Part shown: positions 1-12,099 of the stretch, one piece after another | How positions within the stretch are numbered: position 1 is the first letter of the stretch | Layout: every line of letters starts with the position of its first letter | Source: a virus | Length of the DNA: 37,519 nt | Strand: one strand, 5' to 3' | Virus record (IMG/VR): IMGVR_UViG_3300028298_000015 | Location: 1-37,519 of that record | Translations under genes and position numbers: made by a program | The notes under the pieces: model-generated | Databases searched by the model: none | What the model saw: only the letters and a program-made list of their open reading frames with translations | What the model was told of the DNA's origin: nothing

Positions 1-432
1 GATCCGCCACGCTACGCCTGGGGCCACGAGGTGCGACAAACCTCGTGGGTTGACGCAATCCCTTTACCCTGGCGGCGGCGAGCCGTGGCGGTCACCGTGG
101 AGCCTCCAGGCTTGGGCTATACGCACCTGATCTCGGTGCACCTAACTTCGGCGCCGGCCAATGAGGGCGAACGAAATGAGCAAATGAGCGGGCTGTTGGA
201 CTGGATCAAGGGCCTGGACTTTGCGGCCCTGATTGTCCTAGGAGGAGATTTCAACCTGAGCCGGGAAAAAGAGGCCTATCGATATCCCCGGCAGGATGGA
301 TTCCTGGAATCCGGGGCCAGCGTGCCGGATTTTATTTTTGTGCAGGGCCCTTGCCAGTTTGACGGGCGAGAGGTGCTGGCCGACCGGGTGATTAGCGATC
401 ATGGCGGCGTGATCGTGGAGGTGAAGCCGTGA
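1..432 (+). CDS. EEP-family endonuclease/phosphatase-like protein (5' end cut by window)
   Basis: The frame is open from base 1, so the N-terminus lies outside the window; an internal GTG at 31 is not needed as a start. The visible C-terminal part has two signatures of the endonuclease/exonuclease/phosphatase metal-dependent fold: GGDFN followed by LS near visible residue 80, and SDHGG with the catalytic Asp-His near the end. Members cut phosphodiester bonds in DNA, nucleotides or lipids; the substrate cannot be read here. It is transcribed with the lysis genes and its stop overlaps the next GTG by GTGA. An EEP protein beside the spanins is an unusual position. Fold is confident, role is not. 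Confidence 0.75.
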   Translation, partial: DPPRYAWGHEVRQTSWVDAIPLPWRRRAVAVTVEPPGLGYTHLISVHLTSAPANEGERNEQMSGLLDWIKGLDFAALIVLGGDFNLSREKEAYRYPRQDGFLESGASVPDFIFVQGPCQFDGREVLADRVISDHGGVIVEVKP

Positions 433-758
433 GATATCGTGGCTTTTGGCGGGAATTTTGGAGCCGGGATAACAGCATGGTTGACACTATGGCGGTGATC
501 TCGCTGATTATCTCGGCTCCTATCGTCGGATTGGCCTGTATCTCCTTGATCTACGATATTTTTTACTTGGGGTATGGGCTAACTGAGGTTTCGGTCAAAT
601 TGTTCGCAGCCCTAATCCTGGCAGCTACTGGAGGCTTGGCTGTCAGCCGGTTTAGCAAGCGGACCGCGATTGAGATGGCAGGCCGGGTGCTGGAGGATGA
701 GGGCAAGCCGCCTCAGGTCAAGCCCGCGCCGCTGCCGGAGTGCAAGGAGGAATCATGA
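429..758 (+). CDS. Two-TM small membrane protein, holin-like
   Basis: 109 aa. The GTG start at 429 is preceded by GGAGG with 7-nt spacing and overlaps the previous stop. Two hydrophobic segments are visible, about residues 22-48 and 58-75, followed by a charged tail rich in Lys, Glu and Pro. Size, topology and position immediately 5' of the spanins fit a phage holin, which permeabilises the inner membrane for endolysin release. No family signature is recognised, so holin is an inference from context. The stop overlaps the next ATG (ATGA). Confidence 0.6.
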   Translation: MRYRGFWREFWSRDNSMVDTMAVISLIISAPIVGLACISLIYDIFYLGYGLTEVSVKLFAALILAATGGLAVSRFSKRTAIEMAGRVLEDEGKPPQVKPAPLPECKEES

Positions 759-1057
759 TCTGGACTCTCATAACTTCCCGCCTGGGCGGATGGCTGGTGG
801 GGGGGTTGCTGGTAGCGATTCTGGCCGGGGGGTCATATCTCTGGATCGGCAGTCTCCGGTCTGAGGTTTCGACGCTTAAGGCCGAAAACCAGGTGGCCAA
901 AGATACCATAGACTTTTTTAAGAAGGCGGCAAAGATTAACGTGGAAACTGCCAAGGTCCAGGAGGAAATCAATGAAGTGGTTAAAAGTGGTGATCCTCAG
1001 CGCAAGCTTGATCTGCTTATTAAGCTGCGCAAAATGTCCGCCCCGGCCCCAGATTGA
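755..1057 (+). CDS. i-spanin, Rz-like inner-membrane subunit
   Basis: 100 aa. The ATG at 755 follows AAGGAGG. One N-terminal membrane segment (about residues 10-32) is followed by a charged, coiled-coil-like periplasmic region (SEVSTLKAENQ... to residue ~90). A lipoprotein gene starts inside its 3' end in another frame, the classic embedded Rz/Rz1 layout. Spanins fuse inner and outer membranes in the last step of Gram-negative lysis, so the host should have an outer membrane. Sequence similarity to a named family is not obvious; the call rests on topology and arrangement. Confidence 0.75.
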   Translation: MIWTLITSRLGGWLVGGLLVAILAGGSYLWIGSLRSEVSTLKAENQVAKDTIDFFKKAAKINVETAKVQEEINEVVKSGDPQRKLDLLIKLRKMSAPAPD

Positions 1058-1211
1058 TCTTGGGCAACCGCCGATGGTTCCGGAGTTCACCCTTGACGAA
1101 GTGATGAAAACTCCGGATTCGGTTTTTGAGAAGATGAGCCGGTTCTTCGCTGAATCTATCGGGTTTGCCAAGAAAGCACAGTTGGCAGTTGAGACGTGGA
1201 ACAAGAAATGA
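972..1211 (+). CDS. o-spanin, Rz1-like outer-membrane lipoprotein
   Basis: 79 aa, overlapping the i-spanin gene by 86 nt in another frame. The N-terminus has a lysine, a hydrophobic stretch and the lipobox LLSC, cleaved before Cys19. The mature protein begins with a proline-rich segment (PPRPQIDLGQPPMVPEF), typical of Rz1 proteins, then a short amphipathic helix. It should pair with the upstream protein across the periplasm. The lipobox plus overlap makes this one of the safer calls in the lysis block. Confidence 0.8.
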   Translation: MKWLKVVILSASLICLLSCAKCPPRPQIDLGQPPMVPEFTLDEVMKTPDSVFEKMSRFFAESIGFAKKAQLAVETWNKK

Positions 1212-1393
1212 CCCCCGCCTCCTGCCCTCACTGGGAGCTCGACCTTCACCAGATTTTCCCGTGGGTCAGGGTCTGCAAACATTTTATCGGGTGCTCCGGG
1301 TGCCGCTTAGAGGGGGTTGAGGTCTGCCGGTGGCAGGGGTTGCGGACGGTTGCAACCGGCGATGAAGACCGGGTGCTGCCGATCTACGCGTGA
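1208..1393 (+). CDS. Small Cys-rich hypothetical protein
   Basis: 61 aa, beginning with ATG at 1208 in an ATGA overlap with the o-spanin stop, which supports translation. Five or more cysteines (ASCPHW, RVCKHF, GCSGC, EVCRW) suggest zinc binding. No family is recognised. It is the last gene before attP, and its stop codon overlaps the first candidate integrase arm site. Confidence 0.5.
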   Translation: MTPASCPHWELDLHQIFPWVRVCKHFIGCSGCRLEGVEVCRWQGLRTVATGDEDRVLPIYA

Positions 1394-1413
1394 GCGGATG
1401 CGTGAGCGGTTTT
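1391..1413. repeat. 23-bp direct repeat, left copy; candidate integrase arm site (P arm)
   Basis: This 23-bp sequence recurs identically at 1598-1620. Each copy holds two tandem TGAGCGG motifs, and a further TGAGCGG lies at 1423-1429. The two copies flank the attP core at about -100 and +60, the geometry of arm-type sites bound by the N-terminal domain of lambda-like tyrosine integrases. The repeat is seen directly; its function is inferred. Confidence 0.65.
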
Positions 1414-1500
1414 CAGATATAATGAGCGGAAAAAGGAACAAAACAGAGACACAAAACCAGACAAAACTAACGTGGTTGAGGGAATTAACCAAGGGGCCGG

Positions 1501-1548
1501 TGCTTTGGGAGCAGGAAGTCGGCGGTTCGAATCCGCCCGTCCCGACCA
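1501..1548 (+). other. attP: attP core: 3' half of tRNA-Pro(UGG)
   Basis: The sequence runs from the 3' part of the anticodon arm to CCA. The anticodon loop TTTGGGA (anticodon TGG, 1506-1508) is followed by the variable loop, a 5-bp T stem around TTCGAAT, acceptor strand CGTCCCG, discriminator A and CCA. Upstream of 1501 nothing resembles a tRNA 5' half, so this is a tRNA-identical attachment core and not a working tRNA. Phages that integrate into tRNA genes carry such 3' fragments to restore the gene. The integrase stop codon lies 15 bp away. Confidence 0.85.
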
Positions 1549-1562
1549 GTTATTTCAGGTAG

Positions 1563-2621
1563 TTACTCGTTGTAACCGTTCTCGTTGCTGCTGGCTATGA
1601 GCGGATGCGTGAGCGGTTTTTGATTTTGCAGGCTGCGGGCGGCGCGTTTTAGTGATTCATCCGGGCGGCGGCGGAGATATTTTTCGGTAGTGGCCAGAGA
1701 TTTGTGGCGCAGGTATCGGGAGATGGTGCGCAGGTCTTCCCCCAGGTTCATCAGGGTGTCAGCCCCCAGGTGCCGGATGGCGTGAAACCCGAAATGGCGG
1801 ACGCCGGCCTGTCGGCAAATGGTCTTTAGGCGCTTACGGCGCTGGTTGAAGGGGCGGCCGGTGGAGGGGTTGATGAAGACATATTCGGGGTGCCGGTCCC
1901 GCCTCCGGTAAAGCTGCCGCAGGGTTTCCCGCAGTTCATCGGGCATGGGCAACCAATCCTCTTCCATCTGGCCGCCCTTGCGCTTCCGGGTCCAGAGACG
2001 GACTTCCCCCCTATCCCAGTCCATATCAGCCCATTTGAGGCGATAGATTTCGCCTACCCGCCCCAGGGTGTAAAACACGGTGAGAAAAAAAGGACGCTCC
2101 GGGCCAGCGGCCAAGAGAAAGCGGGCCCACTCCTCCGGGGTGATGTGGATCAGATCCCCAGGGTCGGCGGACAATCGGGCGATCTTGGCGCAGGGGTTGA
2201 CCGCCATCAAGCCACGGTCCACCGCCCAGCGGAACAGGGCTGAGAGGTCTTTGCGGTGAAAATTGTAGTTGTAATTGGAGGGGCGGGTCAGGAGATATCG
2301 GCCCACCAGGTGATCGGTGATCTGACTGAGGGGGAGATTGCCGGCGTGATCCCGGAAGGACTGATACACGAAGCGTTTGTATTTCCAGGTTTTGGGCTGG
2401 AATTTGCGCTGGGCCTCTTCGAGATAATCAAGGGTCAGTGAGTCGAAATCCCAACTCGGCGGCGAGCCTGAGCTTTTCCTCTCGTGTTTTAGGCGCTTGC
2501 GGTGTTCGGCCCGGGCTGCCTTCGCCTTCGCCTTGGAGGGGAACCACTGCCCTGAGTAGTTCTGCCCCTGCAATTCGAAGCGATACCTCCACCCCTTGCC
2601 CTTGACCTGCCAACACCCCAT
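1563..2621 (-). CDS. int: Tyrosine-recombinase integrase
   Basis: 352 aa. The N-terminal ~60 residues (lysine-rich, GWRYRFELQGQ) match the arm-binding domain; a SAM-like core-binding domain follows (about 65-150). The C-terminal catalytic domain shows Arg in LGRVGEIYRLKW, the HAIRH box, then HKSLATTEKYL with the nucleophilic Tyr. It catalyses recombination between attP and a host tRNA-Pro gene. The stop lies 15 bp from the attP core. Its start overlaps the upstream HTH gene by about 190 nt, so translation is probably coupled. It belongs to the leftward early operon and is likely repressed with it. Confidence 0.95.
   Translation of the reverse strand: MGCWQVKGKGWRYRFELQGQNYSGQWFPSKAKAKAARAEHRKRLKHERKSSGSPPSWDFDSLTLDYLEEAQRKFQPKTWKYKRFVYQSFRDHAGNLPLSQITDHLVGRYLLTRPSNYNYNFHRKDLSALFRWAVDRGLMAVNPCAKIARLSADPGDLIHITPEEWARFLLAAGPERPFFLTVFYTLGRVGEIYRLKWADMDWDRGEVRLWTRKRKGGQMEEDWLPMPDELRETLRQLYRRRDRHPEYVFINPSTGRPFNQRRKRLKTICRQAGVRHFGFHAIRHLGADTLMNLGEDLRTISRYLRHKSLATTEKYLRRRPDESLKRAARSLQNQKPLTHPLIASSNENGYNE
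1598..1620. repeat. 23-bp direct repeat, right copy; candidate integrase arm site (P' arm)
   Basis: Identical to 1391-1413. It lies inside the 3' end of the integrase coding sequence, so it is constrained both as protein and, presumably, as a binding site. Two TGAGCGG motifs occur 12 bp apart in the copy. Confidence 0.65.
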
Positions 2622-2763
2622 AGATGACCCCCGGAGAGAATCTCAAAACGCCGATCCCGGCAGGATAAAACCCCCCCAACCGGCGTTTATGCTTATACAC
2701 CGTTTTCGGGGAGAGATTCAAGAGTTTTGCGACCTGCTCCGGGGTCAGGAGCGGGGTGAGCAT
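2428..2763 (-). CDS. Excisionase-like HTH protein overlapping int
   Basis: 111 aa. The N-terminal MerR/excisionase-type helix-turn-helix reads TPEQVAKLLNLSPKTVYKHKRR, a family that includes AlpA/Xis directionality factors. The last ~65 residues are encoded in a frame overlapping int and look low-complexity (Gly/Arg rich), so that tail may be a by-product of the overlap. The first residues MLTPLLT are shared with the protein at 4800-5084. Position directly 5' of int suggests control of excision. HTH confident; excisionase role inferred. Confidence 0.7.
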   Translation of the reverse strand: MLTPLLTPEQVAKLLNLSPKTVYKHKRRLGGFYPAGIGVLRFSPGVIYGVLAGQGQGVEVSLRIAGAELLRAVVPLQGEGEGSPGRTPQAPKTREEKLRLAAELGFRLTDP

Positions 2764-2765
2764 GG

Positions 2766-3140
2766 TTAGGTGTCCTTTATGATCGCCTGAATATCGGGGC
2801 GCGAGAGAATGGCTTTGGCTGCATTAACAACTGTCATAAACTTTGCAGAATAAAATTTATTCCCCGGCATCCTTCCTGGGTTCTCTGTATGGCTTTCAAA
2901 GTATTGTTGTTCGGTGATTAATTTAATCAGTGGGGCCCCCAGTTCTTTTATTAGTTTCTTGAGGTTATCGAGTTCCTCAAGTTTTATCTGTAACTCCTGG
3001 TTATTTTTTATTGCCCATCCCCGCCAGCATTCATGCAAACGGGGTAACTGATCATTGTCCAGTGTCCCACATCTAAATTTCCCATAGGTAATGCTTGGAT
3101 CGGCGTATTTAACCGCTCCACAAAACGGACAATTAGCCAT
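2766..3140 (-). CDS. Zinc-ribbon hypothetical protein (MANCPFCGA paralogue 1)
   Basis: 124 aa. It begins MANCPFCGA with a CPFC knuckle, and further Cys/His (CGTL, LHECW) could complete a zinc site. The middle (residues 45-75) is predicted helical or coiled coil (ELQIKLEELDNLKKLIKEL). The start overlaps the stop of the 3140-3361 gene (TAATG). The same N-terminus in the neighbouring gene, together with a 63-bp DNA repeat, shows tandem duplication. Function unknown. Confidence 0.65.
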   Translation of the reverse strand: MANCPFCGAVKYADPSITYGKFRCGTLDNDQLPRLHECWRGWAIKNNQELQIKLEELDNLKKLIKELGAPLIKLITEQQYFESHTENPGRMPGNKFYSAKFMTVVNAAKAILSRPDIQAIIKDT

Positions 3141-3183
3141 TACTTTTTCTCCTCCACAATCTTCTCGCCCACGGCTGCCTCAA
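3121..3183. repeat. 63-bp direct repeat, copy 1
   Basis: Nearly identical to 3342-3404 with a few mismatches. It spans the 5' codons of one zinc-ribbon gene and the 3' codons of the gene transcribed before it (...AVGEKIVEEKK). It marks unequal recombination or duplication of the MANCPFCGA unit. Confidence 0.8.
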
Positions 3184-3361
3184 GCGTCTCCCTGGCAACT
3201 TTCTTGAGGTCGGCGATTTCGGTTTCAAAACACTTTTTGGTGTGTGGCGTACTAAACAATCTTTCTCCTGATGAAAGAATTTTATAGCATACTCCACAAT
3301 CATAGTGATGCCATGTTCCAGATTTATCTCCTATAGCGCCACAAAACGGGCAATTAGCCAT
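3140..3361 (-). CDS. Zinc-ribbon hypothetical protein (MANCPFCGA paralogue 2)
   Basis: 73 aa. It starts MANCPFCGA, then HHYDCGVCYK gives a second CxxC, so a four-Cys zinc ribbon is likely (Cys4, Cys7, Cys22, Cys25). A lysine/glutamate-rich helix ends the protein (AVGEKIVEEKK). The SD AAGGA precedes the ATG at 3361. The start overlaps the stop of a short remnant that repeats the same C-terminal peptide. Role unknown; small zinc-ribbon proteins are common in phage early operons. Confidence 0.65.
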   Translation of the reverse strand: MANCPFCGAIGDKSGTWHHYDCGVCYKILSSGERLFSTPHTKKCFETEIADLKKVARETLEAAVGEKIVEEKK

Positions 3362-3404
3362 TACTTTTCCTTATCCACAATCTTCTCGCCCACGGCTGCC
3401 TCAA
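3342..3404. repeat. 63-bp direct repeat, copy 2
   Basis: Partner of 3121-3183. This copy covers the start of the 3140-3361 gene and the remnant C-terminus at 3361-3426. Confidence 0.8.
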
Positions 3405-3426
3405 AACAGCTAACTGTGCTTCCCAT
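3361..3426 (-). pseudogene. Remnant 3' end of a third MANCPFCGA-type gene
   Basis: A 21-residue reading frame (MGSTVSCFEAAVGEKIVDKEK) whose last 12 residues copy the C-terminus of the adjacent zinc-ribbon protein. The TAATG overlap with the next gene is retained. No good SD precedes the ATG at 3426. It is best read as the tail left after duplication and deletion, possibly kept for translational coupling. Confidence 0.45.
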
Positions 3427-3452
3427 ATAGTCTTTAATAGGGAATTATATAG

Positions 3453-3812
3453 TTAATTCCCGTAGTCAATTGCCACCACCTGGCCATTCAGCCAACCAAA
3501 CGAATCTGATTTATCCTCTGCTGGAATCCGATAATCAGGATGGTCAACCAATGACTCGTAATCAAATTTTTCATATTCTTCGTCAGTCATTACCCGAACC
3601 CTGGGCATTACCACAAGAAGGCCACCGGGTAACGAAAAAAGAACAGGACAAAAGCCCTCAACATGGTTGGTAAGCCTTGAAATATTCTTTTCCTGCATAT
3701 TGGCTAACAATCCATGAAGAAATAAACGCCATTCTCTCAAGGACGGAATTTTTATTGCATAGGGACCAATCAGCAAAACTTCCCTTGTAGCGCCATTTCT
3801 ATTTAATCTCAT
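3453..3812 (-). CDS. Small kinase-like (APH/protein-kinase fold) hypothetical protein
   Basis: 119 aa from ATG 3812. The pattern resembles a miniature kinase: a Lys in a beta-3-like strand (GPYAIKIPS, ~20), a helix, a hinge-like segment (GGLLVVMPRVRV, ~68), and a C-terminal FGWLNGQVVAIDYGN recalling the Asn-containing catalytic loop plus DFG. An HxD motif is not clear, so activity is uncertain. A strong SD (AAAGGAG) precedes an out-of-frame 8-codon ORF, MREINEIK-stop, which overlaps this start and may couple translation. AT-rich relative to neighbours. Confidence 0.45.
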   Translation of the reverse strand: MRLNRNGATREVLLIGPYAIKIPSLREWRLFLHGLLANMQEKNISRLTNHVEGFCPVLFSLPGGLLVVMPRVRVMTDEEYEKFDYESLVDHPDYRIPAEDKSDSFGWLNGQVVAIDYGN

Positions 3813-3846
3813 TGATTTCTCGCATTTGATTTCTCCTTTAAAAGTT

Positions 3847-3952
3847 CCCTGGGGGCCGGAGTTTCGAGTATCCGGCTTGAGAAGGAAGGCGCGACCTTCT
3901 CCTAAATTTATCGCCCGTGTTGCCCCCGACCTCACGCCGGGCCGCCCCAGGG
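3847..3952 (-). ncRNA. Candidate structured leader RNA (multi-branch fold)
   Basis: Pairing seen by eye: an 8-bp closing stem (3847-3854 with 3945-3952), a 6-bp hairpin (3855-3860 with 3871-3876, 10-nt loop) and a 7-bp hairpin (3879-3885 with 3895-3901). The closing and first stems stack directly. It lies in the 144-bp gap 5' of the kinase-like gene on the leftward transcript. It may be an enlarged member of the intergenic hairpin family in this phage or a cis-regulatory RNA. Confidence 0.4.
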
Positions 3953-3956
3953 TTGT

Positions 3957-4139
3957 TTATTTTTCAAAGCAGTCTGGACAAACCTGCGTGTCCTCAGCAA
4001 TCCACCACCCCGCATCGGCTGCTGCGGCTGGAGGCCCCTCAAAGTAACCCCTATCATCTTGAGGGTAGTGAGGTCTCACGATCTCTTGAGTGCCATCCTG
4101 GGGGTTACACCGGTCACAGGTTATGATGGTGTGGATCAT
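3957..4139 (-). CDS. Small zinc-binding hypothetical protein
   Basis: 60 aa. ATG 4139 is chosen because it overlaps the DUF5131 stop as ATGA; an in-frame GTG lies at 4151. An N-terminal CDRC and a C-terminal CPDC make a plausible four-Cys zinc site separated by an acidic, aromatic middle. No family recognised. Translationally coupled to the gene before it. Confidence 0.6.
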   Translation of the reverse strand: MIHTIITCDRCNPQDGTQEIVRPHYPQDDRGYFEGPPAAAADAGWWIAEDTQVCPDCFEK

Positions 4140-4735
4140 GGGTTCGGCCACTCCTGAATCTTTACGGTGGAGGGGGCGCCCGGCGGATAAAGATTGTCTT
4201 TAAGGAATATCGGAACCCCCGCCGCCCGATACTGGTGGATAAGTCCCGACACGCACTCATCCTTTGGCTTCACCGGCCCGGAACCGGTCTGCGCGCCGAT
4301 GATGGCCCACGGCTCAATGCAGTTGGGGGGCCATAAGCCATTCCATTGCTCAAGGCGGCGGGGGTTCTTGGTTAAGAACTGATAGACATGCTGCGGAGCC
4401 CTACCACAAGCCCCCAGCACAGCGTTAATCCACACCGAATCTACCCAATCCCCGAACAGGTCCCCCATAGAAACAACAAAGATTTTGCTGGGCTTTTTGG
4501 TCTTGGCGGGCTGGGAGAGGCGGTCGGGGTGGAAGGTGGGGGCAAAGGGGTCCATCAAGGCCCAAAGCTCAGGATGATCGTGTGTCGGACGAAATCTCTC
4601 CCAAAATCTAAAAGCAATCTTTTGGGCATAGCAATAAGGACACCGATTCGGCTTTTCCGCCGTGCCGCCAGGACCCCAACAGCCGGTTACGGGGTTCCAG
4701 GTAAAGTCGGTCCATTCAATCTTGGTCTTGTTCAT
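4136..4735 (-). CDS. DUF5131 (phage Gp37/Gp68 family) protein
   Basis: 199 aa from ATG 4735, after GAGG. The family signature is clear: TKIEWTDFTWNPVTGC near the N-terminus, then CPYCYAQ, and mid-protein FVVSMGDLFGDWV and FLTKNPRRL. The family is widespread in phages and has a radical-SAM-like cysteine arrangement; its reaction is not established. An upstream in-frame GTG (4741) is less likely. It lies in the leftward operon with overlapping neighbours. Confidence 0.85.
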   Translation of the reverse strand: MNKTKIEWTDFTWNPVTGCWGPGGTAEKPNRCPYCYAQKIAFRFWERFRPTHDHPELWALMDPFAPTFHPDRLSQPAKTKKPSKIFVVSMGDLFGDWVDSVWINAVLGACGRAPQHVYQFLTKNPRRLEQWNGLWPPNCIEPWAIIGAQTGSGPVKPKDECVSGLIHQYRAAGVPIFLKDNLYPPGAPSTVKIQEWPNP

Positions 4736-4799
4736 GCTCACCTCAAAGTTCCCGGCCCCAGGGCGGCGGGGGCGGGGTTAGGGGTTGATATGTGGGAGG

Positions 4800-5084
4800 T
4801 TAGGTGATGCCAATTTTCAACGGAGCCTCGTTCAGGGGCGGCCAGGGGTCGCCGGTCATGGGGTCGCGGCGGGTTTTTAAATCCCGCCAGTCCTGGCAGT
4901 GGAACGCCGGGTCGGCGGGGTTCCGGAGGCTGTCGGCCTTGATCCGGAGGATGGCGTATTTCCCCCCGGGTTTGCGAAGGTCCACCACCTCTACTTGATG
5001 AGACTCAATCATGCGGGTGAGGGTGTTGGGGCAGACGTTCAGCAATTTGGCTGCCTGCGACCGGGTCAGGAGAGGGGTGAGCAT
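4800..5084 (-). CDS. Excisionase/MerR-type HTH protein, second MLTPLLT paralogue
   Basis: 94 aa. The helix-turn-helix (TRSQAAKLLNVCPNTLTRMIESHQV) is followed by a beta-wing-like strand (KYAILRIKADSL). The first seven residues, MLTPLLT, equal those of the HTH gene next to int, so the two genes share a duplicated 5' segment. The C-terminal DPMTGDPWPP recurs as a separate 22-residue ORF at 6770-6838, backed by a 43-bp DNA repeat. Probably a small DNA-binding regulator; a second excisionase is possible. Confidence 0.65.
   Translation of the reverse strand: MLTPLLTRSQAAKLLNVCPNTLTRMIESHQVEVVDLRKPGGKYAILRIKADSLRNPADPAFHCQDWRDLKTRRDPMTGDPWPPLNEAPLKIGIT
4837..4879. repeat. 43-bp direct repeat, copy 1
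   Basis: Matches 6786-6828 with two or three mismatches; the first 30 bp are identical. It encodes the DPMTGDPWPP peptide on the minus strand. Confidence 0.8.
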
Positions 5085-5136
5085 TTAGGTTTTCTCCCGC
5101 CCCGATATTTCTAACCCGCCTCGGGGCCGGCGGGGG

Positions 5137-5214
5137 TTACTGACAGGAACCTATATGCTTCTTACCACATAATGCGCATGGCGACTCAACACGGTCTCTG
5201 CTCGGTTTAATCAC
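5137..5214 (-). CDS. Possible 25-aa zinc-knuckle peptide, start unresolved
   Basis: The frame reads IKPSRDRVESPCALCGKKH then IGSC; CxxC-H-C spacing fits a zinc knuckle. A perfect AAGGAGGTGA SD lies at its 5' end, but the only in-frame start is a GTG inside the SD, or an AUU directly after it. Either the start is non-canonical or the start codon was lost. It follows the 38-aa membrane protein by a few bases. Confidence 0.35.
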   Translation of the reverse strand: MIKPSRDRVESPCALCGKKHIGSCQ

Positions 5215-5223
5215 CTCCTTTTA

Positions 5224-5340
5224 TTATGGCCAATCATCCAGAAAATCGCCAGTTAGGATGTACATAATCAAACAAAAGACTGCAATCCAATAACCGTCAC
5301 GTTGATATATTTCTTTAATAGACCAATGTTCTGAACTCAT
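5224..5340 (-). CDS. 38-aa single-TM peptide
   Basis: ATG 5340 follows a near-perfect SD (GGAGGTGAT). The peptide MSSEHWSIKEIYQRDG is followed by one hydrophobic helix (YWIAVFCLIMYIL) and an acidic end (GDFLDDWP). AT-rich, unlike the core phage genes. Function unknown; small membrane peptides in early operons may act in superinfection exclusion, but nothing here proves that. Confidence 0.6.
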   Translation of the reverse strand: MSSEHWSIKEIYQRDGYWIAVFCLIMYILTGDFLDDWP

Positions 5341-5471
5341 ATCACCTCCTTTCTCCCAGGGCCGGCGGCACTCAACCGCCCCTAATTATGCTTTCCGGAA
5401 CTTCCACCTCAAAAAGTCCTTGGCAACCCTTGACCGGGAAAGATTCTATAGCCTGCTTTGCTATTCCTTGT

Positions 5472-5774
5472 TCATGGTAACTCTACAATGCTGATTAATA
5501 CCCAATTGTGATGCTCCCATAATAACCCCTTAGATTGAGTACATGTGATCATAACTTTTTTCTTTGTATCCCTATTCTCACACACCATGACTAAATCACG
5601 ATCTAACTGCATTAAATATCGATATCTGACAATTTTTATAGGTTGATAGTTACTTAATCCCATTTCGCTAAGCGCCTCGTTTGCCATATTAAACTTACCA
5701 CTTGCTTCTGTGTTGTTACATATAATCAAAGACCCCATGAACACTATAAAAACAATAAATAACTTTTGTGTCAT
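5472..5774 (-). CDS. Exported small hypothetical protein
   Basis: 100 aa. A typical signal peptide (MTQKLFIVFIVFMGSLIICNNTEASG) has a likely cleavage site near residue 25. The mature part is beta-rich and contains two cysteines (VCEN and ITCT) that could form a disulphide. Markedly AT-rich, which suggests recent acquisition as a moron-type gene. The gap 5341-5471 holds no convincing gene: one frame without any start codon, plus a GC-rich hairpin at 5361-5384. Confidence 0.6.
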   Translation of the reverse strand: MTQKLFIVFIVFMGSLIICNNTEASGKFNMANEALSEMGLSNYQPIKIVRYRYLMQLDRDLVMVCENRDTKKKVMITCTQSKGLLWEHHNWVLISIVELP

Positions 5775-5796
5775 TTGATTTCATCCCCTTTTTCAA

Positions 5797-5818
5797 GGGC
5801 CAGCCACATTACTGGCCC
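5797..5818. other. Intergenic hairpin GGGCCAG/CTGGCCC
   Basis: A 7-bp perfect stem with an 8-nt loop sits just upstream of the 5774 start. The same stem sequence, one base pair longer, recurs at 31871-31898. Its outer side is followed by a 19-bp segment (5816-5834) repeated exactly at 6161-6179. No U-tract, so not a normal terminator. Confidence 0.6.
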
Positions 5819-5868
5819 CGGTTGCGCCCGCTTCGGCATATAGTCAAACATTTATCCCTCCATCGGGG

Positions 5869-6126
5869 CTATGCAATAGAGTCCTTTTCATACCACCTTT
5901 CATGTGGTGGGGCATCGGGAGACACCTTATCTCTGACTAACTGTTTAGGGAGCCAATAAGGACAATCCAAACCGCGCTTATTGTTTTCTTGGGTTGCTTC
6001 GGGATCAATGGTTAAGCTAAATTCCTGGCAAAACCCCGGTTCGCCATCGTATGCTTTGTAATTTAAGTGGCAATTATCACAAGTAATAAAGTCCTCTGAA
6101 AAATTAAAACACCTTTTTTGGCTCAT
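5869..6126 (-). CDS. Small Cys-rich hypothetical protein
   Basis: 85 aa. ATG 6126 is chosen for the GGGAG SD 6 nt before it. Cysteines at CFNF, TCDNCH, GFCQEF and DCPYW suggest metal binding. The first two thirds are acidic and aromatic. No family recognised. Preceded by a GC-rich intergenic hairpin. Confidence 0.55.
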   Translation of the reverse strand: MSQKRCFNFSEDFITCDNCHLNYKAYDGEPGFCQEFSLTIDPEATQENNKRGLDCPYWLPKQLVRDKVSPDAPPHERWYEKDSIA

Positions 6127-6139
6127 AGTTTTCTCCCAT

Positions 6140-6165
6140 CGGGGCGGCTGCGGTCCACCGCCCCG
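6140..6165. other. Intergenic hairpin CGGGGCGG/CCGCCCCG
   Basis: An 8-bp perfect stem with a 10-nt loop, 14 bp upstream of the 6126 start codon on the leftward transcript. Same family as 7430-7461. Confidence 0.6.
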
Positions 6166-6349
6166 GTTGCGCCCGCTTCCCAGCCCAGGATAAAACGACT
6201 CACGCGCCAGCGTGTTACTTTCCGTGGACCTCTGGGCGGTACTTAGCGGGCCTTTCTGTCGCCAGTCCTGGCCCACGGTTATCCCCGGTCACGGCCCGCA
6301 TGGGTTAAGTGCCGGGAAAACTTCCCTGATCTGGGGCCGGATAAACCCC

Positions 6350-6760
6350 CTACTTAATATGCTCGATTGGTTGATCTTGGTTATAAAGTCTCCAATTAGG
6401 CCAAACCCTGTTTTCATTCACGACTTGCTTCCTTTCGATGGCAGCGCATATTTCTTCTGCTGTGAAGCCAGCCCGCCAAGCTCCATCTAGGGCTAAAATC
6501 ACAACATCTATCCATTCATAAGAAGTGGGCTCAGCTTCAACTTCTTATAGCTCTTTATGAATATGATCAGTAATTCCCCTAACCCGAGGGCCGGGACCGA
6601 AAACTCTCAAAGAGAAATCAGCTTGGCGCTTTAAGTGAGCAATAAGGTCAAATTCCTTCTGGTCACAAATGGAACACTCCACGCATTCGCCAAATGATGA
6701 ACACCAGGAGGAATCGGGGCGATTAAAGAAACCACAATGAGGCTTTTTTGACTCTTCCAT
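6350..6760 (-). pseudogene. MazG-like dNTP pyrophosphohydrolase (DUF550 type) with in-frame TAA
   Basis: The open part 6545-6760 (71 aa) has a Cys-rich leader, then FDLIAHLKRQADFSLRVFG and DHIHKEL, the N-terminal signature of DUF550 dATP/dGTP pyrophosphohydrolases. After one TAA (6545-6547) the same frame continues EVEAEPTSYEWIDVVILAL, then a WRAGFTAEEI segment and NENRVWPNWR...PIEHIK, ending at TAG 6350-6352. That is the rest of the domain, including the EWID acidic metal motif. The break is a single nonsense codon with no shift. It could be a recent mutation or a readthrough site. The family hydrolyses dNTPs to dNMPs. Confidence 0.8.
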
Positions 6761-6769
6761 TTCAATCTC

Positions 6770-6838
6770 CTATATAGTCTCGGCCGGCGGCCAGGGGTCG
6801 CCGGTCATGGGGTCGGTGCGGGTTTTTATTCCATTCAT
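6770..6838 (-). CDS. 22-aa ORF repeating the DPMTGDPWPP peptide
   Basis: The frame MNGIKTRTDPMTGDPWPPAE ends with TI. It starts in an ATGA overlap with the zinc protein gene before it, so it is positioned for translation. Its core equals the C-terminus of the HTH protein at 4800-5084 (KTRRDPMTGDPWPP), so either a protein tail was copied alone or a longer gene decayed to its tail. Confidence 0.45.
   Translation of the reverse strand: MNGIKTRTDPMTGDPWPPAETI
6786..6828. repeat. 43-bp direct repeat, copy 2
   Basis: Partner of 4837-4879; encodes the shared DPMTGDPWPP peptide on the minus strand. Confidence 0.8.
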
Positions 6839-7152
6839 TGGACGCATCCCGGAGTGGAACAGTTCGCCCAGATGTGGCCGTTGCTGGCACTTACGGAATA
6901 GGTCAGGTCGCCGATCTCGCATACGGGGCAAGCTAACTTGCCCCGTATACCGCGATGGCCGTTGCTGTCCTCCACGATGGCGGCCCGGGCGATGATGATT
7001 TTTGCCAGTGAATCCTGTGCCCGCCGGTGTTTTTCTACCGCCAAGGCGCAATCACACCGTCGTATCCTGGGCGGGGTCGTGAACCGTTCCCGCAGGATTC
7101 CGGTGTTCAGGCATTTGGGGCAAATCGGCGTCAGTTCGGTTTTGTCAGGCAT
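6835..7152 (-). CDS. Zinc-binding hypothetical protein
   Basis: 105 aa; ATG 7152 follows GGAGACGTT. Two cysteine pairs flank the chain: ICPKCLNTG and RRCDCAL at the N-terminus, then LACPVCEIGDL and WANCSTPGC at the C-terminus. The first resembles the DnaJ-like or primosomal CxxC...CxC knuckle, the second a zinc ribbon. A basic helix lies between. Probably a nucleic-acid- or protein-binding accessory factor; no named family. Confidence 0.6.
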   Translation of the reverse strand: MPDKTELTPICPKCLNTGILRERFTTPPRIRRCDCALAVEKHRRAQDSLAKIIIARAAIVEDSNGHRGIRGKLACPVCEIGDLTYSVSASNGHIWANCSTPGCVQ

Positions 7153-7185
7153 AACGTCTCCGGGTAGTGGTTAAAATGCACATAG

Positions 7186-7416
7186 CTATTTCACCAATTC
7201 CATCTGGGTATAGCCCATCTGTTGGGCGGCTTTGATGGCCTTGGCCTGGGCCTGCTGGGCGGTGATGGCGGCGCTGAGGCCGGCAACGCCGAAGCCCCAA
7301 CTGTGATGGGCGATGTAGATTTTCTTGCCGGTCTCGGGGTTGGTCATAATGACGTTCATGGGAGTGGCGCAGCCCAGGGAAAAGAGCAGCGCCGCCATGA
7401 TGACAAGTTTTTTCAC
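7186..7416 (-). CDS. Small lipoprotein
   Basis: 76 aa from GTG 7416, chosen for the AAGGAGG SD. MKKLVIMAALLFSLGC gives a signal and lipobox ending at Cys16. The mature part contains a Gly/Ala helix (GFGVAGLSAAITAQQAQAKA). It is the first gene of the leftward operon, about 110 nt from the predicted PL start, so it should be expressed early or constantly repressed. A surface-exclusion role is conceivable but unproven. Confidence 0.6.
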   Translation of the reverse strand: MKKLVIMAALLFSLGCATPMNVIMTNPETGKKIYIAHHSWGFGVAGLSAAITAQQAQAKAIKAAQQMGYTQMELVK

Positions 7417-7429
7417 TGGAGGCCTCCTT

Positions 7430-7461
7430 CCGGGGCGGTCCTGGCACTTGCCCCGCCCCGG
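7430..7461. other. Intergenic hairpin CCGGGGCGG/CCGCCCCGG
   Basis: A 9-bp perfect stem (7430-7438 with 7453-7461), with a small inner GGC/GCC stem in the loop, ends 6 bp before the SD of the lipoprotein gene on the leftward transcript. Confidence 0.65.
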
Positions 7462-7533
7462 GGTTGTGGGTTGGTCAACGGCCCCGGCCTGGGCTTGGGT
7501 GTGCGGTGGCCGGGGGTGGTTCATGGGTTTTAC

Positions 7534-7560
7534 AGTATACCTCTATGATATACCTGTCAA
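7534..7560 (-). promoter_or_regulatory. Leftward early promoter (PL-like) with operator 7535-7553
   Basis: On the minus strand the -35 TTGACA (7555-7560) and the -10 TATACT (7534-7539) are 15 bp apart. The spacer and -10 are covered by a 19-bp near-palindrome, GTATATCATAGAGGTATAC as read on the minus strand. The same 15-bp arrangement occurs at 8038 and 18772. It should drive 7416 down to int. Confidence 0.75.
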
Positions 7561-7566
7561 GCAAAA

Positions 7567-7585
7567 AAATACCTATTTGGTAGAA
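7567..7585. promoter_or_regulatory. Second operator of the PL pair
   Basis: AAATACCTATTTGGTAGAA aligns with the 19-bp operator consensus at about 12 positions plus one C/T match. Its centre is 32 bp from that of 7535-7553, the same spacing as the pair at 18747 and 18779. Confidence 0.6.
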
Positions 7586-7611
7586 AATCGCAAAATAATT
7601 CGTAGGGAGGC

Positions 7612-7995
7612 TTAAATTTTTTTTGCGAGGTCTTTTAAGTTGATTATTTGATTGATAAACCCGCTTAAAAACTCAGGTTTATCTTGTATCGTGTAAAACA
7701 AATCGGTAAGATGGCTAACTATTTTTTCTTTCAGGTCGGCGGGAAGCTGGTGAAGTAAAACTAGCAAGACAGCGTCTTCTTTGTCTGCGTGTAGCGCCCT
7801 GGTAAAAGCATTCTCGGTCATGTTAAACGCCTTCGCCAGGCGAGGGCGAGTTGCTGGCCCAGCCCGTCTATTGCCGGTTTCAAGGTGGCTAATCTGCCCC
7901 TTAGACATTCCGGCCAGCTTGCCTAAATGCCCCTGGGTCCAGTGCAGGGCCTCGCGCATGGCTTTTAAATTTTTACCAGGATTCATGATAGTCAT
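7612..7995 (-). CDS. Phage repressor, XRE-family HTH
   Basis: 127 aa. The N-terminal XRE helix-turn-helix (NLKAMREALHWTQGHLGKLAG then SKGQISHLETGNRRAG) is followed by a helical C-terminal half (LVLLHQLPADLKEKIVSHL) suited to dimerisation. No LexA/CI Ser-Lys protease domain is present, so induction would not be by RecA-stimulated self-cleavage. It lies between divergent promoters bearing 19-bp operators and is probably the immunity repressor. SD AGAGGA lies 5 nt before ATG 7995. A possible promoter has a CATAAT -10 at about 8020 on the minus strand. Confidence 0.85.
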   Translation of the reverse strand: MTIMNPGKNLKAMREALHWTQGHLGKLAGMSKGQISHLETGNRRAGPATRPRLAKAFNMTENAFTRALHADKEDAVLLVLLHQLPADLKEKIVSHLTDLFYTIQDKPEFLSGFINQIINLKDLAKKI

Positions 7996-8037
7996 AATAT
8001 CCTCTTGAAAGCCAAAAAAAAATTATGCAAAAAGATA

Positions 8038-8064
8038 TTGACTTGAATATCTATTTGGTATACC
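8038..8064 (+). promoter_or_regulatory. Rightward early promoter (PR-like) with operator 8045-8063
   Basis: TTGACT (8038-8043), 15 bp, TATACC (8059-8064). The operator GAATATCTATTTGGTATAC covers the spacer and -10. The expected start near 8070 is only a few bases before the cro-like ATG at 8074, so the message may be leaderless. Confidence 0.75.
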
Positions 8065-8073
8065 GTGAAGCCC

Positions 8074-8313
8074 ATGCACCCTCTAAAAAAATTTCTTATG
8101 GAAACCAGACAGACTCAGGCGAAATTCGCTGCCCGAGTTGGGACATCGAAGGCATACCTTAATCACATAATCACTGGTTTAAAAATGCCCGGAGATGACC
8201 TGATCGAAGCGATGGTACGAGAGTCTGGTGGCATGTTGGTCTATCGGGATTTTAGGCCGGATAAGGCAGAACAACTCGACCGAATCAAGGGCCTTGAAGC
8301 CCAAAATGTATAG
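8074..8313 (+). CDS. Cro/YdaS-like HTH regulator
   Basis: 79 aa from ATG 8074 (an upstream in-frame GTG is at 8065). The HTH reads TQAKFAARVGTSKAYLNHIITG, the pattern of Cro/CI-superfamily YdaS-like proteins. A short C-terminal extension (GMLVYRDFRPDKAEQLDRI) follows. Divergent from the repressor and under the operator-covered promoter, so the natural role is the lytic-side antagonist. There is no SD in the few bases between promoter and ATG. Confidence 0.75.
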   Translation: MHPLKKFLMETRQTQAKFAARVGTSKAYLNHIITGLKMPGDDLIEAMVRESGGMLVYRDFRPDKAEQLDRIKGLEAQNV

Positions 8314-8314
8314 A

Positions 8315-8488
8315 TCATGTTTTATTCGGATCTTCCGGCTCCTCCGGAACCAGCCCCGGAAACATCTCTTTGAGCAGCTTCAGGGCGGCCTCGGCCTGGC
8401 GCTGGCGTTTCTGTAGGGGCTGGTGTTTGCAGTGGGGGCAGGTGGCCAGGCAGATGATGCAGGGGAGAATAATGAGAGAGAGTTTCAT
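8315..8488 (-). CDS. Small membrane/lipoprotein-like peptide
   Basis: 57 aa from ATG 8488, after GGAGATGT. MKLSLIILPCIICLATCPHC is a hydrophobic signal-like segment with several Cys that could act as lipobox, followed by a basic amphipathic helix and an acidic end. Convergent with the cro-like gene. No promoter was found for it. The stretch 8489-8691 shows no other gene. Confidence 0.45.
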   Translation of the reverse strand: MKLSLIILPCIICLATCPHCKHQPLQKRQRQAEAALKLLKEMFPGLVPEEPEDPNKT

Positions 8489-8691
8489 ACATCTCCAGGG
8501 GCAAGGCGCCGGATATGTGCATGGGCCAGCCTCCGGCGAACCGCGGGTTTTTAGCGCCGGTATCCTGGACCGGCTCATCCGTTTCGGTCGGGGTTTCTTG
8601 TTTTTCATGCTACCAGGATAATGACCCGGCTACAATCTTGTAAAGGTTAGAAGGTTTAATTTTTTGGATATTGTGAGGTGGAGGGGCTTAC

Positions 8692-9219
8692 GTGGACATT
8701 GATGAATATCTCGCCTTACCCCTGGAAGACCAGCGCAACATCCTCAAGGAAAAACTCTCAGAAACCGTGCCCCGGGGCGAAATCAAGGAAGCGGCCCACG
8801 CCGCCGGCCTAAACGACTACACGCTCTACAAAGCCAGGGACCCCGAATGCGAAACCCACAACCTCATCCGCCCCGAGCTTCTGGCTCTCATCCGCCACAC
8901 CGGGCGATACCTGCTGCTGGATTTTGTTGACGGCCTTTTCGGGCGCGTGGCTTTCAACCGTCCCCAGGCCATCGAGTCCCTATCCGAAATCAACCGCCGG
9001 ATTACCGACGTGCTCCGGGAAACCACCGGGGCAATCCAGACGGTGATCGGCGCCCTGGATGAGACATCCTCCGATGGGCTCCAGATAACCAAGGATGAGA
9101 TGCGCGCCATTGAACAGGAAATCCAAGAAGCCCACCAGCAGCTTGCTACCCTGGAAGATGCGGCCCGGCAGCTTTATTTGAGATGGAAAATGAAAGAACT
9201 TAAGGTGGTGGAGGGATGA
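8692..9219 (+). CDS. CII-like regulator (phage CP76-type)
   Basis: 175 aa; GTG 8692 follows GGAGG. The N-terminal half contains an HTH-like segment (GEIKEAAHAAGLNDYTLYKARDP) and a conserved helical block (RPELLALIRHTGRYLLLDFVDGLFG), then a long coiled-coil C-terminus. This matches the P2/186-type CII and CP76 regulatory family, which activates or tunes early lysogeny transcription. First gene of the rightward replication operon; its stop overlaps the next ATG. Confidence 0.65.
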   Translation: MDIDEYLALPLEDQRNILKEKLSETVPRGEIKEAAHAAGLNDYTLYKARDPECETHNLIRPELLALIRHTGRYLLLDFVDGLFGRVAFNRPQAIESLSEINRRITDVLRETTGAIQTVIGALDETSSDGLQITKDEMRAIEQEIQEAHQQLATLEDAARQLYLRWKMKELKVVEG

Positions 9220-9473
9220 ACCAGAAACCGCCAAGGCCCGACGTGGCTACTCCCGACGCCATAGAAGTTTGGCACCTGCCCATTAATCAAATCGGCTATC
9301 ACCTGGCTTTAACTGAGGCCGGCCTATTTAGGATTCATCCAACAGACCCGGTGCCTGAGGGCGCCGTGCGGCTCTATCCCGGGATGCTCCACGCCTGGAG
9401 GTGGTTTGAACGGGATGGCGGTTTGCGGCCTGAGTTTGCTGGGCGGCCGGTGTGGGGGAGTGCCAGTCAATGA
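9216..9473 (+). CDS. Hypothetical protein between CII-like and initiator genes
   Basis: 85 aa, linked to both neighbours by ATGA overlaps. It has no signal or clear motif; the chain is proline- and tryptophan-rich (DAIEVWHLPINQIGYHL, MLHAWRWFERDGG). Probably a real small operon gene; function unknown. Confidence 0.55.
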   Translation: MNQKPPRPDVATPDAIEVWHLPINQIGYHLALTEAGLFRIHPTDPVPEGAVRLYPGMLHAWRWFERDGGLRPEFAGRPVWGSASQ

Positions 9474-10429
9474 CACGGCCCCGCAAGCAGACCGTCGATT
9501 ATTTTCCGCATTATTGTCACCATGGCAAGACAATGGCGATACTTGAACAGAAATTTGGGAATGACGGTTACGCTTTTTGGTTCAAGCTCTTAGAGTTTTT
9601 GGGGTCATCTGAAGGGCATTTTGTCAACTGCAATGAATCAGTGGCATGGGAATACCTGCAATCCATCACCAGGCTTGAATCGGAAATTTGTGATGCGATT
9701 TTGAATTTGCTTTCCAGGGTGCAGGCCATAGACCCGGATTTATGGGAAGAACGGATTATTTGGTCAGATAATTTTGTGCAAGGGATAACCTATGCTTATC
9801 GTAATCGGGTAATAGAAACACCTCAAAAACCGTCAATCTTACGTAAGAAACCCCTAAGCGAAGGGCAATCTGACGTATTAAATCCGGGAAAGGAAAGGAA
9901 AGGAAAGGAAAGGAATAACCCCCCCTCCCCCCTTAAGGGGGAGTCGCCTCCCTTTCAAAAAATTATCGAACTCTGGAATACCCATGCCCCCGAACTTCTC
10001 CCTAGGGCGTCCTTAACCGAAAAGCGTAAACCAAAAATCAAGGCTGCTTGGAAAGAGTATCCTGACCTGGAATGGTGGAAGGCGCTCTTTACCGACATAA
10101 CCTTGTCATCCTGGCATAGCCACCGGGACAAGTGGCAGGGATGCTCGTTCGATTGGATACTGGCGAAGCGAACCGAGATGAGAGAAAAACTCAATGCTCT
10201 CAAAGGCAATGGGGCCGACAAATCGCCCCCCCGGGCCCGTGACCCGGCTTGCCCGCGTTGCCGCGGCTCCGGCCTTTATCAGAGCGGCACGGCCCCGGAT
10301 GGAAAACCCATAATGGCACAATGCGAGTGCAAGCGAGAACCAGATGAAACACACGAGACAAAACCACCAACAGCCCCAGCAGCCCCAACAGGTCCTGACC
10401 TACGCTCCGCCGGCCCACCTGGAGGCTGA
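9470..10429 (+). CDS. DUF4373-type phage replication initiator
   Basis: 319 aa from ATG 9470 (ATGA overlap). The N-terminal winged-helix of the Lin1244/Lin1753 or DUF4373 type reads VDYFPHYCHHGKTMAILEQK, FGNDGYAFWFKLLEFLG. A low-complexity linker (KGKERKGKERNN) follows, then a primosome-like domain (FQKIIELWNTHAPELLP... KWQGCSFDWIL) and a C-terminal zinc knuckle (CPRCRGSG...CECK). Such proteins open the phage origin and recruit helicase. The next gene is DnaB, overlapping by 86 nt. The first ~400 bp are more AT-rich than the rest, a mosaic sign. Confidence 0.75.
   Translation: MTRPRKQTVDYFPHYCHHGKTMAILEQKFGNDGYAFWFKLLEFLGSSEGHFVNCNESVAWEYLQSITRLESEICDAILNLLSRVQAIDPDLWEERIIWSDNFVQGITYAYRNRVIETPQKPSILRKKPLSEGQSDVLNPGKERKGKERNNPPSPLKGESPPFQKIIELWNTHAPELLPRASLTEKRKPKIKAAWKEYPDLEWWKALFTDITLSSWHSHRDKWQGCSFDWILAKRTEMREKLNALKGNGADKSPPRARDPACPRCRGSGLYQSGTAPDGKPIMAQCECKREPDETHETKPPTAPAAPTGPDLRSAGPPGG
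9887..9915 (+). repeat. GGAAA pentanucleotide tandem repeat in initiator gene
   Basis: Five full GGAAA units plus GGAA. The unit is not a multiple of three, so gain or loss of one unit shifts the frame. It encodes the linker KGKERKGKER. Confidence 0.85.
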
Positions 10430-11699
10430 GCAGTCGGTCCTGGGGGCCATCCTGGTACGGCCAGAAGTCCTGGACACCATGGCGGATATGTTGCGGCCGG
10501 AAGACTTCTACCGGGAAGCTCACGGCCTCATTTACCGGGCTATGCTTAACCTGTATGGGCGCAGTGAACCTGTGGATCTGGTAACCGTGTCGGCCCGGCT
10601 GCGGGAGAAGGGAAAACTGGATGAGGTCGGGGGGGCGGTGTTCTTGGCCGGCCTCAGTGAGGAAGTCGGGTTTGCCACCAACGCGGGGTACTATGCCAGG
10701 CTGGTAAGTGATAAGGCGGTACTGCGGCGGATGATAGACGCCACGCAGGAAATCGCCTCCGGGTGTCTGGCGCCAGTAGAAAATGTGCCGGAGTTTATGG
10801 ACCGGGCGGAGCAGAAAGTCTTTGACGTGGTTCATGCGGGGCGGGGCGGGGACGGTGCCATGGCCACCCTCGCAGACCTGGCCAAGGCAAACTGGAATCA
10901 CCTGGAAACCCTGTTTTACCAAAGCAAAGAAGACTCAGGACTGCTCACAGGATTTTATGATTATGACCGATTTACCGCCGGTCTCCACCCCGGGGAGTTG
11001 ACGGTTTTGGCGGCGCGGCCTGGCATGGGGAAGACCGCCCTTGCTTTAAATATTGCCTGGAACGTTGGGCAGGCTGAGCCGGTGGCGTTCTTCTCGATGG
11101 AAATGGACAAGGCCCGGCAGTTGATAACCCGGATGGTCGCCCAGGCCGGCCGGATCGACGGCGACAACTTGCGCCGGTGCAAATTGACTCAGGCGGAATG
11201 GGCGCAGCGGGGCCAAGTGCAGGTGGCTCTTGAGGATGCAAAAATTTGGATAGACGACACCCCGGGTCTCACCCCCTTGCAACTGCGGGCCCGGTGCAGG
11301 CGGCTCAAGGCAAGGCAAAACCTGGCCCTGGTGATCGTGGATTATTTACAACTCATGCGAGCCCCGGGAATGCGGGGCCGGGAAGACGAAATTCGGGAGA
11401 TCGCTTACAGCTTGAAGGAAATTTCTAAGGAGTTGGGGGTTCCGGTGCTGGCGGCCGCTCAGGTAAACCGGGACATAGAGAAACGCTCAGGGAATCGCTA
11501 CCAGCTATCGGACCTCCGGGAATCCGGGGCCATAGAGCAGGCCAGCGACAATGTGCTGTTTCTCTACCGCGGGAAGGAAGATGTTGTGGCCAAGATGGAC
11601 CTGGCGAAACAGCGGAACGGGCGGGTAGGTTTTTTTGAGCTGGCTTACTCGGCGCAGTTCTGCCGATTTGACAATCTAATGAGGGGAGGAGCGCTTTGA
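10344..11699 (+). CDS. dnaB: Replicative DNA helicase DnaB
   Basis: 451 aa. The N-terminal DnaB domain ([35 protein letters not shown]) precedes the RecA-like motor: Walker [15 protein letters not shown] (~224), Walker [12 protein letters not shown] (~340), then [11 protein letters not shown] and [13 protein letters not shown] glutamine-rich start ([11 protein letters not shown]) replaces the usual leader. The hexamer unwinds the fork 5'-3'. It overlaps the initiator gene in another frame, implying coupling. Confidence 0.95.
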
Positions 11700-11911
11700 A
11701 GGCAACCGGAACGGTCAAATGGTTCAATGACGTCAAGGGTTATGGGTTTATTTCCTGTGAAGGCAAACCAGATGTGTTTGTGCACTATTCCGAGATCGTC
11801 AGCAATGGCAATGGGCGGCGGACTCTTTACGAGGGGGGCTCGGTGGAGTTCGAAGTCGGCCAGGGCCCCAAGGGGCTCCAGGCGCTGAGTGTTAGAGTTG
11901 TGGTCAAGTGA
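11696..11911 (+). CDS. Cold-shock-domain protein
   Basis: 71 aa, starting with TTG in a TTGA overlap after GGAGGA. RNP1-like [10 protein letters not shown] and RNP2-like DVFVHYSEI are intact in a five-strand OB fold. These proteins bind single-stranded RNA/DNA and melt mRNA structure; here it could assist translation or replication of a transcript dense in GC hairpins (inference). Sited directly after dnaB. Confidence 0.9.
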
Positions 11912-11922
11912 GGTATCACGTC

Positions 11923-12099
11923 ATGGTTAACTGGCTATGGCTGTTAGCAGTGGGGTTTGGCGGGTTCTCTCTCGGTATTGTAGCCCTGGCGATTTTCGCA
12001 TCAGGCCGGGATGAGCACTTTTACCGGCAGGGCTATTTTGAAGGCCACGAGGAAGGCTATAAGGCAGGGGTGGTCGGCAAAGGCGGTATCGGGCGGTGA
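11923..12099 (+). CDS. Small single-TM protein
   Basis: 58 aa from ATG 11923, after GAGG. One membrane helix (LWLLAVGFGGFSLGIVALAIFA), then a polar, glycine-rich tail with charged repeats (GYFEGHEEGYKAG). Its stop overlaps the RusA start (TGATG). Function unknown. Confidence 0.55.
   Translation: MVNWLWLLAVGFGGFSLGIVALAIFASGRDEHFYRQGYFEGHEEGYKAGVVGKGGIGR

Follow-up and report, generated by a model that had tools for sequence, protein, structure and literature searches.

A lambda-type attP at the 3' half of tRNA-Pro(UGG) in an uncultured temperate phage and its relatives in one order of Desulfobacterota

In the attP of phage lambda, a central core is flanked by arm-type sites in a P and a P' arm, and an IHF site lies between the core and the P' arm; the P arm also contains Xis sites, and the role of the H' site in lambda att has been described (PMC4880445). 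Islander counts 2083 anticodon-centred islands, and in its class A the tRNA 3' half carried by the element restores the gene and the displaced fragment marks the far end (PMC4383910). The attP sites of Cluster K, L5 and Giles have paired arm repeats around a tRNA or tmRNA core, the repeats of L5 and Giles being direct, and in Cluster K the arm motifs vary among integrases that share the same attB (PMC3203893).

The site described here, located in a window of 37,519 nt (the whole stretch of DNA that was analysed, which is an entire virus record and not a part of a bacterial contig), is a lambda-type attP at a tRNA gene and, as such, is of an ordinary, known kind. It shares with the lambda attP (PMC4880445) the central core, the P and P' arm-type sites (five in each of the two attP) and an IHF-like site, with a putative IHF role, between the core and the P' arm, but differs in that the core is a tRNA 3' half, the paired sites are spaced by 12 bp and the P' arm lies inside the int gene. 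The arm repeats are paired around the tRNA core as in Cluster K, L5 and Giles and are direct as in the latter two phages; in contrast to the Cluster K1 attP, which is located 5' of int, the attP in the window overlaps int at the 3' end of the gene (PMC3203893). Compared with Islander class A (PMC4383910), there is no difference in kind, and the window adds a new host lineage and a tRNA-Pro(UGG) example.

We interpret this interval, with a probability of roughly 0.95, as the intact attP of an unintegrated temperate phage whose integrase recombines the core with the 3' half of a host tRNA-Pro(UGG) gene. An intact attP had been proposed in a sequence-only reading of the same DNA, and that proposal is supported by the host tRNA match and by a related prophage at tRNA-Pro(UGG), both detailed below.

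The core (positions 1501..1548, plus strand; TGCTTTGGGAGCAGGAAGTCGGCGGTTCGAATCCGCCCGTCCCGACCA) represents a tRNA-Pro(UGG) 3' half, which runs from the anticodon stem through the CCA and includes the anticodon loop (TTTGGGA), the T-arm and the CCA itself; by analogy with the 55-bp block shared by attL and attR of an integrated relative (genome G014, see below), it may extend in the 3' direction by GTTATTT (1549..1555, plus strand). ARAGORN detected no complete tRNA in the 37,519 nt, and no copy of the 5' half of the host tRNA was found in the window at up to 8 mismatches, so that the candidate of a complete tRNA gene in the window was dropped. Thus, the assignment of 1501-1548 to tRNA-Pro(UGG) holds, with the 3' half present and no 5' half, and a complete tRNA-Pro gene reaching into 1440-1500, which the sequence-only reading had named as evidence against an attP, was looked for and not found. 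Strand exchange likely occurs in the anticodon loop (1504-1510), where we place the crossover because the identity between phage and host begins inside the anticodon stem.

Among the approximately 85,000 species genomes searched, the 48-bp core is matched exactly in two, a Syntrophobacterales MAG (L003) and a Deltaproteobacteria MAG (L004), which belong to one and the same order of Desulfobacterota (29 genomes of this order were searched). In each of them, the match (48/48 identical) is part of a complete tRNA-Pro(UGG) gene located just downstream of an rdgB-type gene. The expectation that the core predicts the host target is borne out by this identical 48-bp sequence in two bacterial tRNA-Pro(UGG) genes, which identifies tRNA-Pro(UGG) as the predicted target gene. 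No integrase was recognised beside the tRNA-Pro(UGG) in the DNA read from L003 and L004, with the L003 sequence ending 401 bp past the tRNA.

An integrase search of the order identified an integrated relative in G014, with an integrase that is ~73-74% identical to that of the window. At the G014 attL (L033, contig C177), the rdgB-type gene is followed by a complete tRNA-Pro(UGG) gene and then by TGAGCGGGTCCGTGAGCGG in the end of int. At attR (L032, contig C35), TGAGCGGATTTGTGAGCGT and TGAGCGG are followed by a lone tRNA-Pro 3' half and then by other DNA, whose first reading frame is HigA-like by inspection; phage tail-fibre and virion genes are located on the inner side of this attR. The two junctions have in common a 55-bp block that runs from the anticodon stem through GTTATTT; the flanks are unrelated. 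The proposed check for prophages ending at tRNA-Pro(UGG) thus yielded a related prophage for which both attL and attR were found, and, at the level of sequence, these have the structure expected of the products of recombination in the tRNA 3' half. The two junctions lie on different contigs, and a search for an uninterrupted empty site that combines both G014 flanks found none; the integrated copies seen are those of relatives, with none of the window's own phage.

On both sides of the core, the window contains 23-bp repeats that are 100% identical to each other, one in the P arm (1391..1413, plus strand) and one in the P' arm (1598..1620, plus strand). Each includes, as originally noticed, two TGAGCGG motifs (1391-1397 and 1403-1409; 1598-1604 and 1610-1616), and a third P-arm site is located at 1423..1429 (plus strand), so that TGAGCGG starts in the window at 1391, 1403, 1423, 1598 and 1610. 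The arms, which had been described as symmetric, are so with respect to the identical repeats and not with respect to the number of sites, which is three in the P arm and two in the P' arm. The P' repeat indeed lies within the int coding sequence, in its last codons, and the TGA of the P-arm repeat at 1391 is the stop codon of the ORF 1196-1393. By our own estimate, a DNA of 37.5 kb would contain ~1e-5 exact 23-bp repeats by chance, although the window also holds a few other long repeats elsewhere. A near-exact duplication was observed around two small adjacent genes (3130-3180 and 3351-3400, with the repeats CAATTAGCCATTACTTTT and TCCACAATCTTCTCGCCCACGGCTGCCTCAA).

With the centre of the anticodon loop taken as zero, the arm sites are at -116, -104 and -84 in the P arm and at +91 and +103 in the P' arm. 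All these offsets are the same in the window and in G014, where the P-arm sites are found at attR and one site contains 1 mismatch. Between the P arms of the window and G014, 20 of 21 positions are identical at the arm sites compared to 38 of 86 (44%) elsewhere (Fisher p 1.3e-5). A search of 29 genomes from the order detected the pattern TGAGCGG-N5-TGAGCGG only at the G014 attL and in G015, and both occurrences adjoin a tRNA and an integrase of this kind. The predicted arm geometry of the window attP is apparent from this sequence comparison. The 23-bp repeat as the arm unit did not survive it: the conserved unit is TGAGCGG(N5)TGAGCGG, and because the ATGCG spacer of the repeat is not conserved, the binding unit is probably the pair of TGAGCGG sites 12 bp apart.

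The gene for the tyrosine integrase (1563..2621, minus strand; 352 aa; PF00589, E 4.7e-22; PHROG 1 integrase, E 3.8e-48) has its stop codon 14 bp from the CCA of the tRNA core. Residues 1-55 of the integrase have no Pfam match, and an AlphaFold2 model, checked for the N-terminal arm-binding domain, was too poor for use (pLDDT 43). A small HTH_17 protein, a candidate excisionase, is encoded at 2428..2763 (minus strand; PF12728, E 2.5e-6; TIGR01764 excisionase domain, E 0.004, below the cut-off) by an ORF that overlaps the int start by 194 bp in another frame. The same overlap exists in a related viral record (L002), and homologues of the HTH_17 protein are encoded upstream of int in G014, G007, L002 and others. 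The H' site of lambda lies at a distance from the core centre similar to that of an IHF-like site in the window, TTTCAGGTAGTTA (1553..1565, plus strand), which occupies an H'-like position at about +52 and has 2 mismatches to WATCAANNNNTTR, the IHF consensus. In 8 of 20 loci, including the window, the IHF-like motif starts 5 bp past the CCA (binomial p ~6e-15 for the fixed position, with the loci treated as independent). Proteins of the HU/IHF family are present in all 29 genomes of the order, none of them above the curated IHF-alpha cut-off.

We propose that recombination by the integrase (1563-2621) takes place between the core (1501-1548) and its identical counterpart, the 3' half of the tRNA-Pro(UGG) gene of the host. 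In the integrated state, a complete tRNA-Pro gene would be restored at attL from the 5' half contributed by the host and the 3' half contributed by the phage, and the displaced host 3' half would stay at attR. The TGAGCGG motifs would serve as arm-type sites for the N-terminal domain of the integrase, three in the P arm and two in the P' arm, and a bend just 3' of the core, putatively introduced by IHF, would fold the P' arm, which is part of the end of int, back towards the core; the HTH_17 protein may act as the excisionase. That the TGAGCGG repeats are instead sites for another protein, such as a repressor or an excisionase, has a parallel in the Xis sites that the lambda P arm also holds (PMC4880445), but this appears quite unlikely: the TGAGCGG pairs are in both arms, with the P' pair inside int, the motif varies between integrases and the layout persists, and paired arm sites of this sort are used by lambda-type integrases (PMC3203893, PMC4880445).

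In the left flank of the window (1-1390), there are no family matches above the cut-off. By inspection, we recognised an overlapping pair of spanin-like ORFs (740-1057 and 972-1211, plus strand), a putative lysis cassette just left of the attP; the first is i-spanin-like, with an N-terminal membrane segment and a coiled region, the second is o-spanin-like, with the lipobox LLSC, and neither has a family match. An endonuclease/exonuclease/phosphatase-like ORF at the contig edge (31-432, plus strand; Pfam E 3e-4, below the cut-off) is an unusual neighbour for a phage lysis region. The statement that the core has phage genes on both sides accordingly stands for the right side, and on the left, in 1-1390, the spanin-like pair recognised by inspection is the only indication of phage genes.

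On the right, the gene order starting from int is, with gaps, that of an integrated prophage in genome G007 from its attL on. This prophage (contig C59, about 12-66 kb; L038-L040) is located at tRNA-Ala(CGC) and is syntenic with the window, with 52% identity for the portal, 52% for the major head protein and 69% for another gene; its attR was not found in C59 10-100 kb. Given the genes on both sides of the core and the rightward synteny with the G007 prophage, the window DNA fits a circular or replicating phage form, not a lysogen. The scarcity of recognisable phage genes in 1-1390 and the resemblance of an attR to a lone tRNA 3' half are what might be expected if the window were the end of an integrated prophage (attL or attR) or a decayed tRNA remnant. 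We consider this very improbable: neither int nor the P' arm is present at an attR, whereas the window has both arms and int around one core, the ORFs left of the core include the spanin-like pair, and the P arm of the window corresponds to the phage side of the G014 attR, not to host DNA. The notion that the P' repeat merely reflects a repeated peptide (PLTHPLI) at the end of the integrase is barely credible. The spacing of 12 bp corresponds to four codons, and a repeat (PLT.PL) is seen in the encoded residues, but the identical 23 bp also occur outside int, in the P arm, all 3 sequences compared (a small sample) retain the codons CCG CTC, and the 11- and 13-bp spacings in relatives are out of frame, so that a repeated peptide cannot explain the repeats.

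Of the related integrases that were examined in this order, most sit directly next to the 3' end of a tRNA gene (Pro, Ala, SeC, Arg, Leu and Glu). When paired direct repeats with a spacing of 11-13 bp in the P' region were evaluated against shuffles in 20 loci, the window among them, p<0.01 was obtained in 12 and p<0.05 in 14; in one locus (L018), there is no paired P' repeat at this spacing. The arm motifs differ between the relatives (TGAGCGG, ATGGGAG, GGGGAGC, TGAGTAGG, TGTGTGACT and others). Other arms, with the same layout, are found at the same tRNA-Pro in two viral records compared to the window: L002 has an attP with the tRNA-Pro 3' half and ATGGGAG at -118, -106, +68 and +81, and L055 has a tRNA-Pro attP with GGGGAGC-type sites at about -117, -86, +68 and +81. 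Conversely, the arms of the window and G014 (Pro) recur at another tRNA in G015 (contig C105; L019/L031), where a decayed integrase remnant with a TGAGCGG pair at +91/+103 is located at tRNA-Ala(CGC). The sequence of this locus suggests a switch of the tRNA target with the arms kept, and because the same arm sites are found at tRNA-Ala(CGC), the arms would not dictate the tRNA target.

Searches of viral sequences added few members. No relative was found in IMG/VR with the integrase as a single-protein query, and a search with an alignment query retrieved five, one of which is the L002 record again, the others being L055-L058; in L056-L058, the surroundings of int showed no att site. The arm pattern occurs in at least 120 stretches of IMG/VR, chiefly by chance given the size of the collection, and among the 80 matches listed, there are only four weak integrase matches, with about 28% identity or less. 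In 50,697 reference phage records, window positions 1-12000 have no megablast match and no close relative, and the best tblastn matches of the integrase, among those listed, are below 30% identity. Considering these relatives together, we lean towards an integrase family of one Desulfobacterota order in which the att layout is held and arm motifs and tRNA targets vary independently of each other; the proposed layout consists of arm pairs 11-13 bp apart, a P' pair that is usually in the end of int, and an IHF-like site past the tRNA.

The exact tRNA core links an uncultured temperate phage to a host order, with the attP resolved to the base, and predicts a working set of integrase, attP and attB for Desulfobacterota. 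The relatives offer independent variation of the arm motif and of the tRNA target, and if the layout is indeed held across the family, it would provide a natural series for reading the arm-recognition code of integrases.
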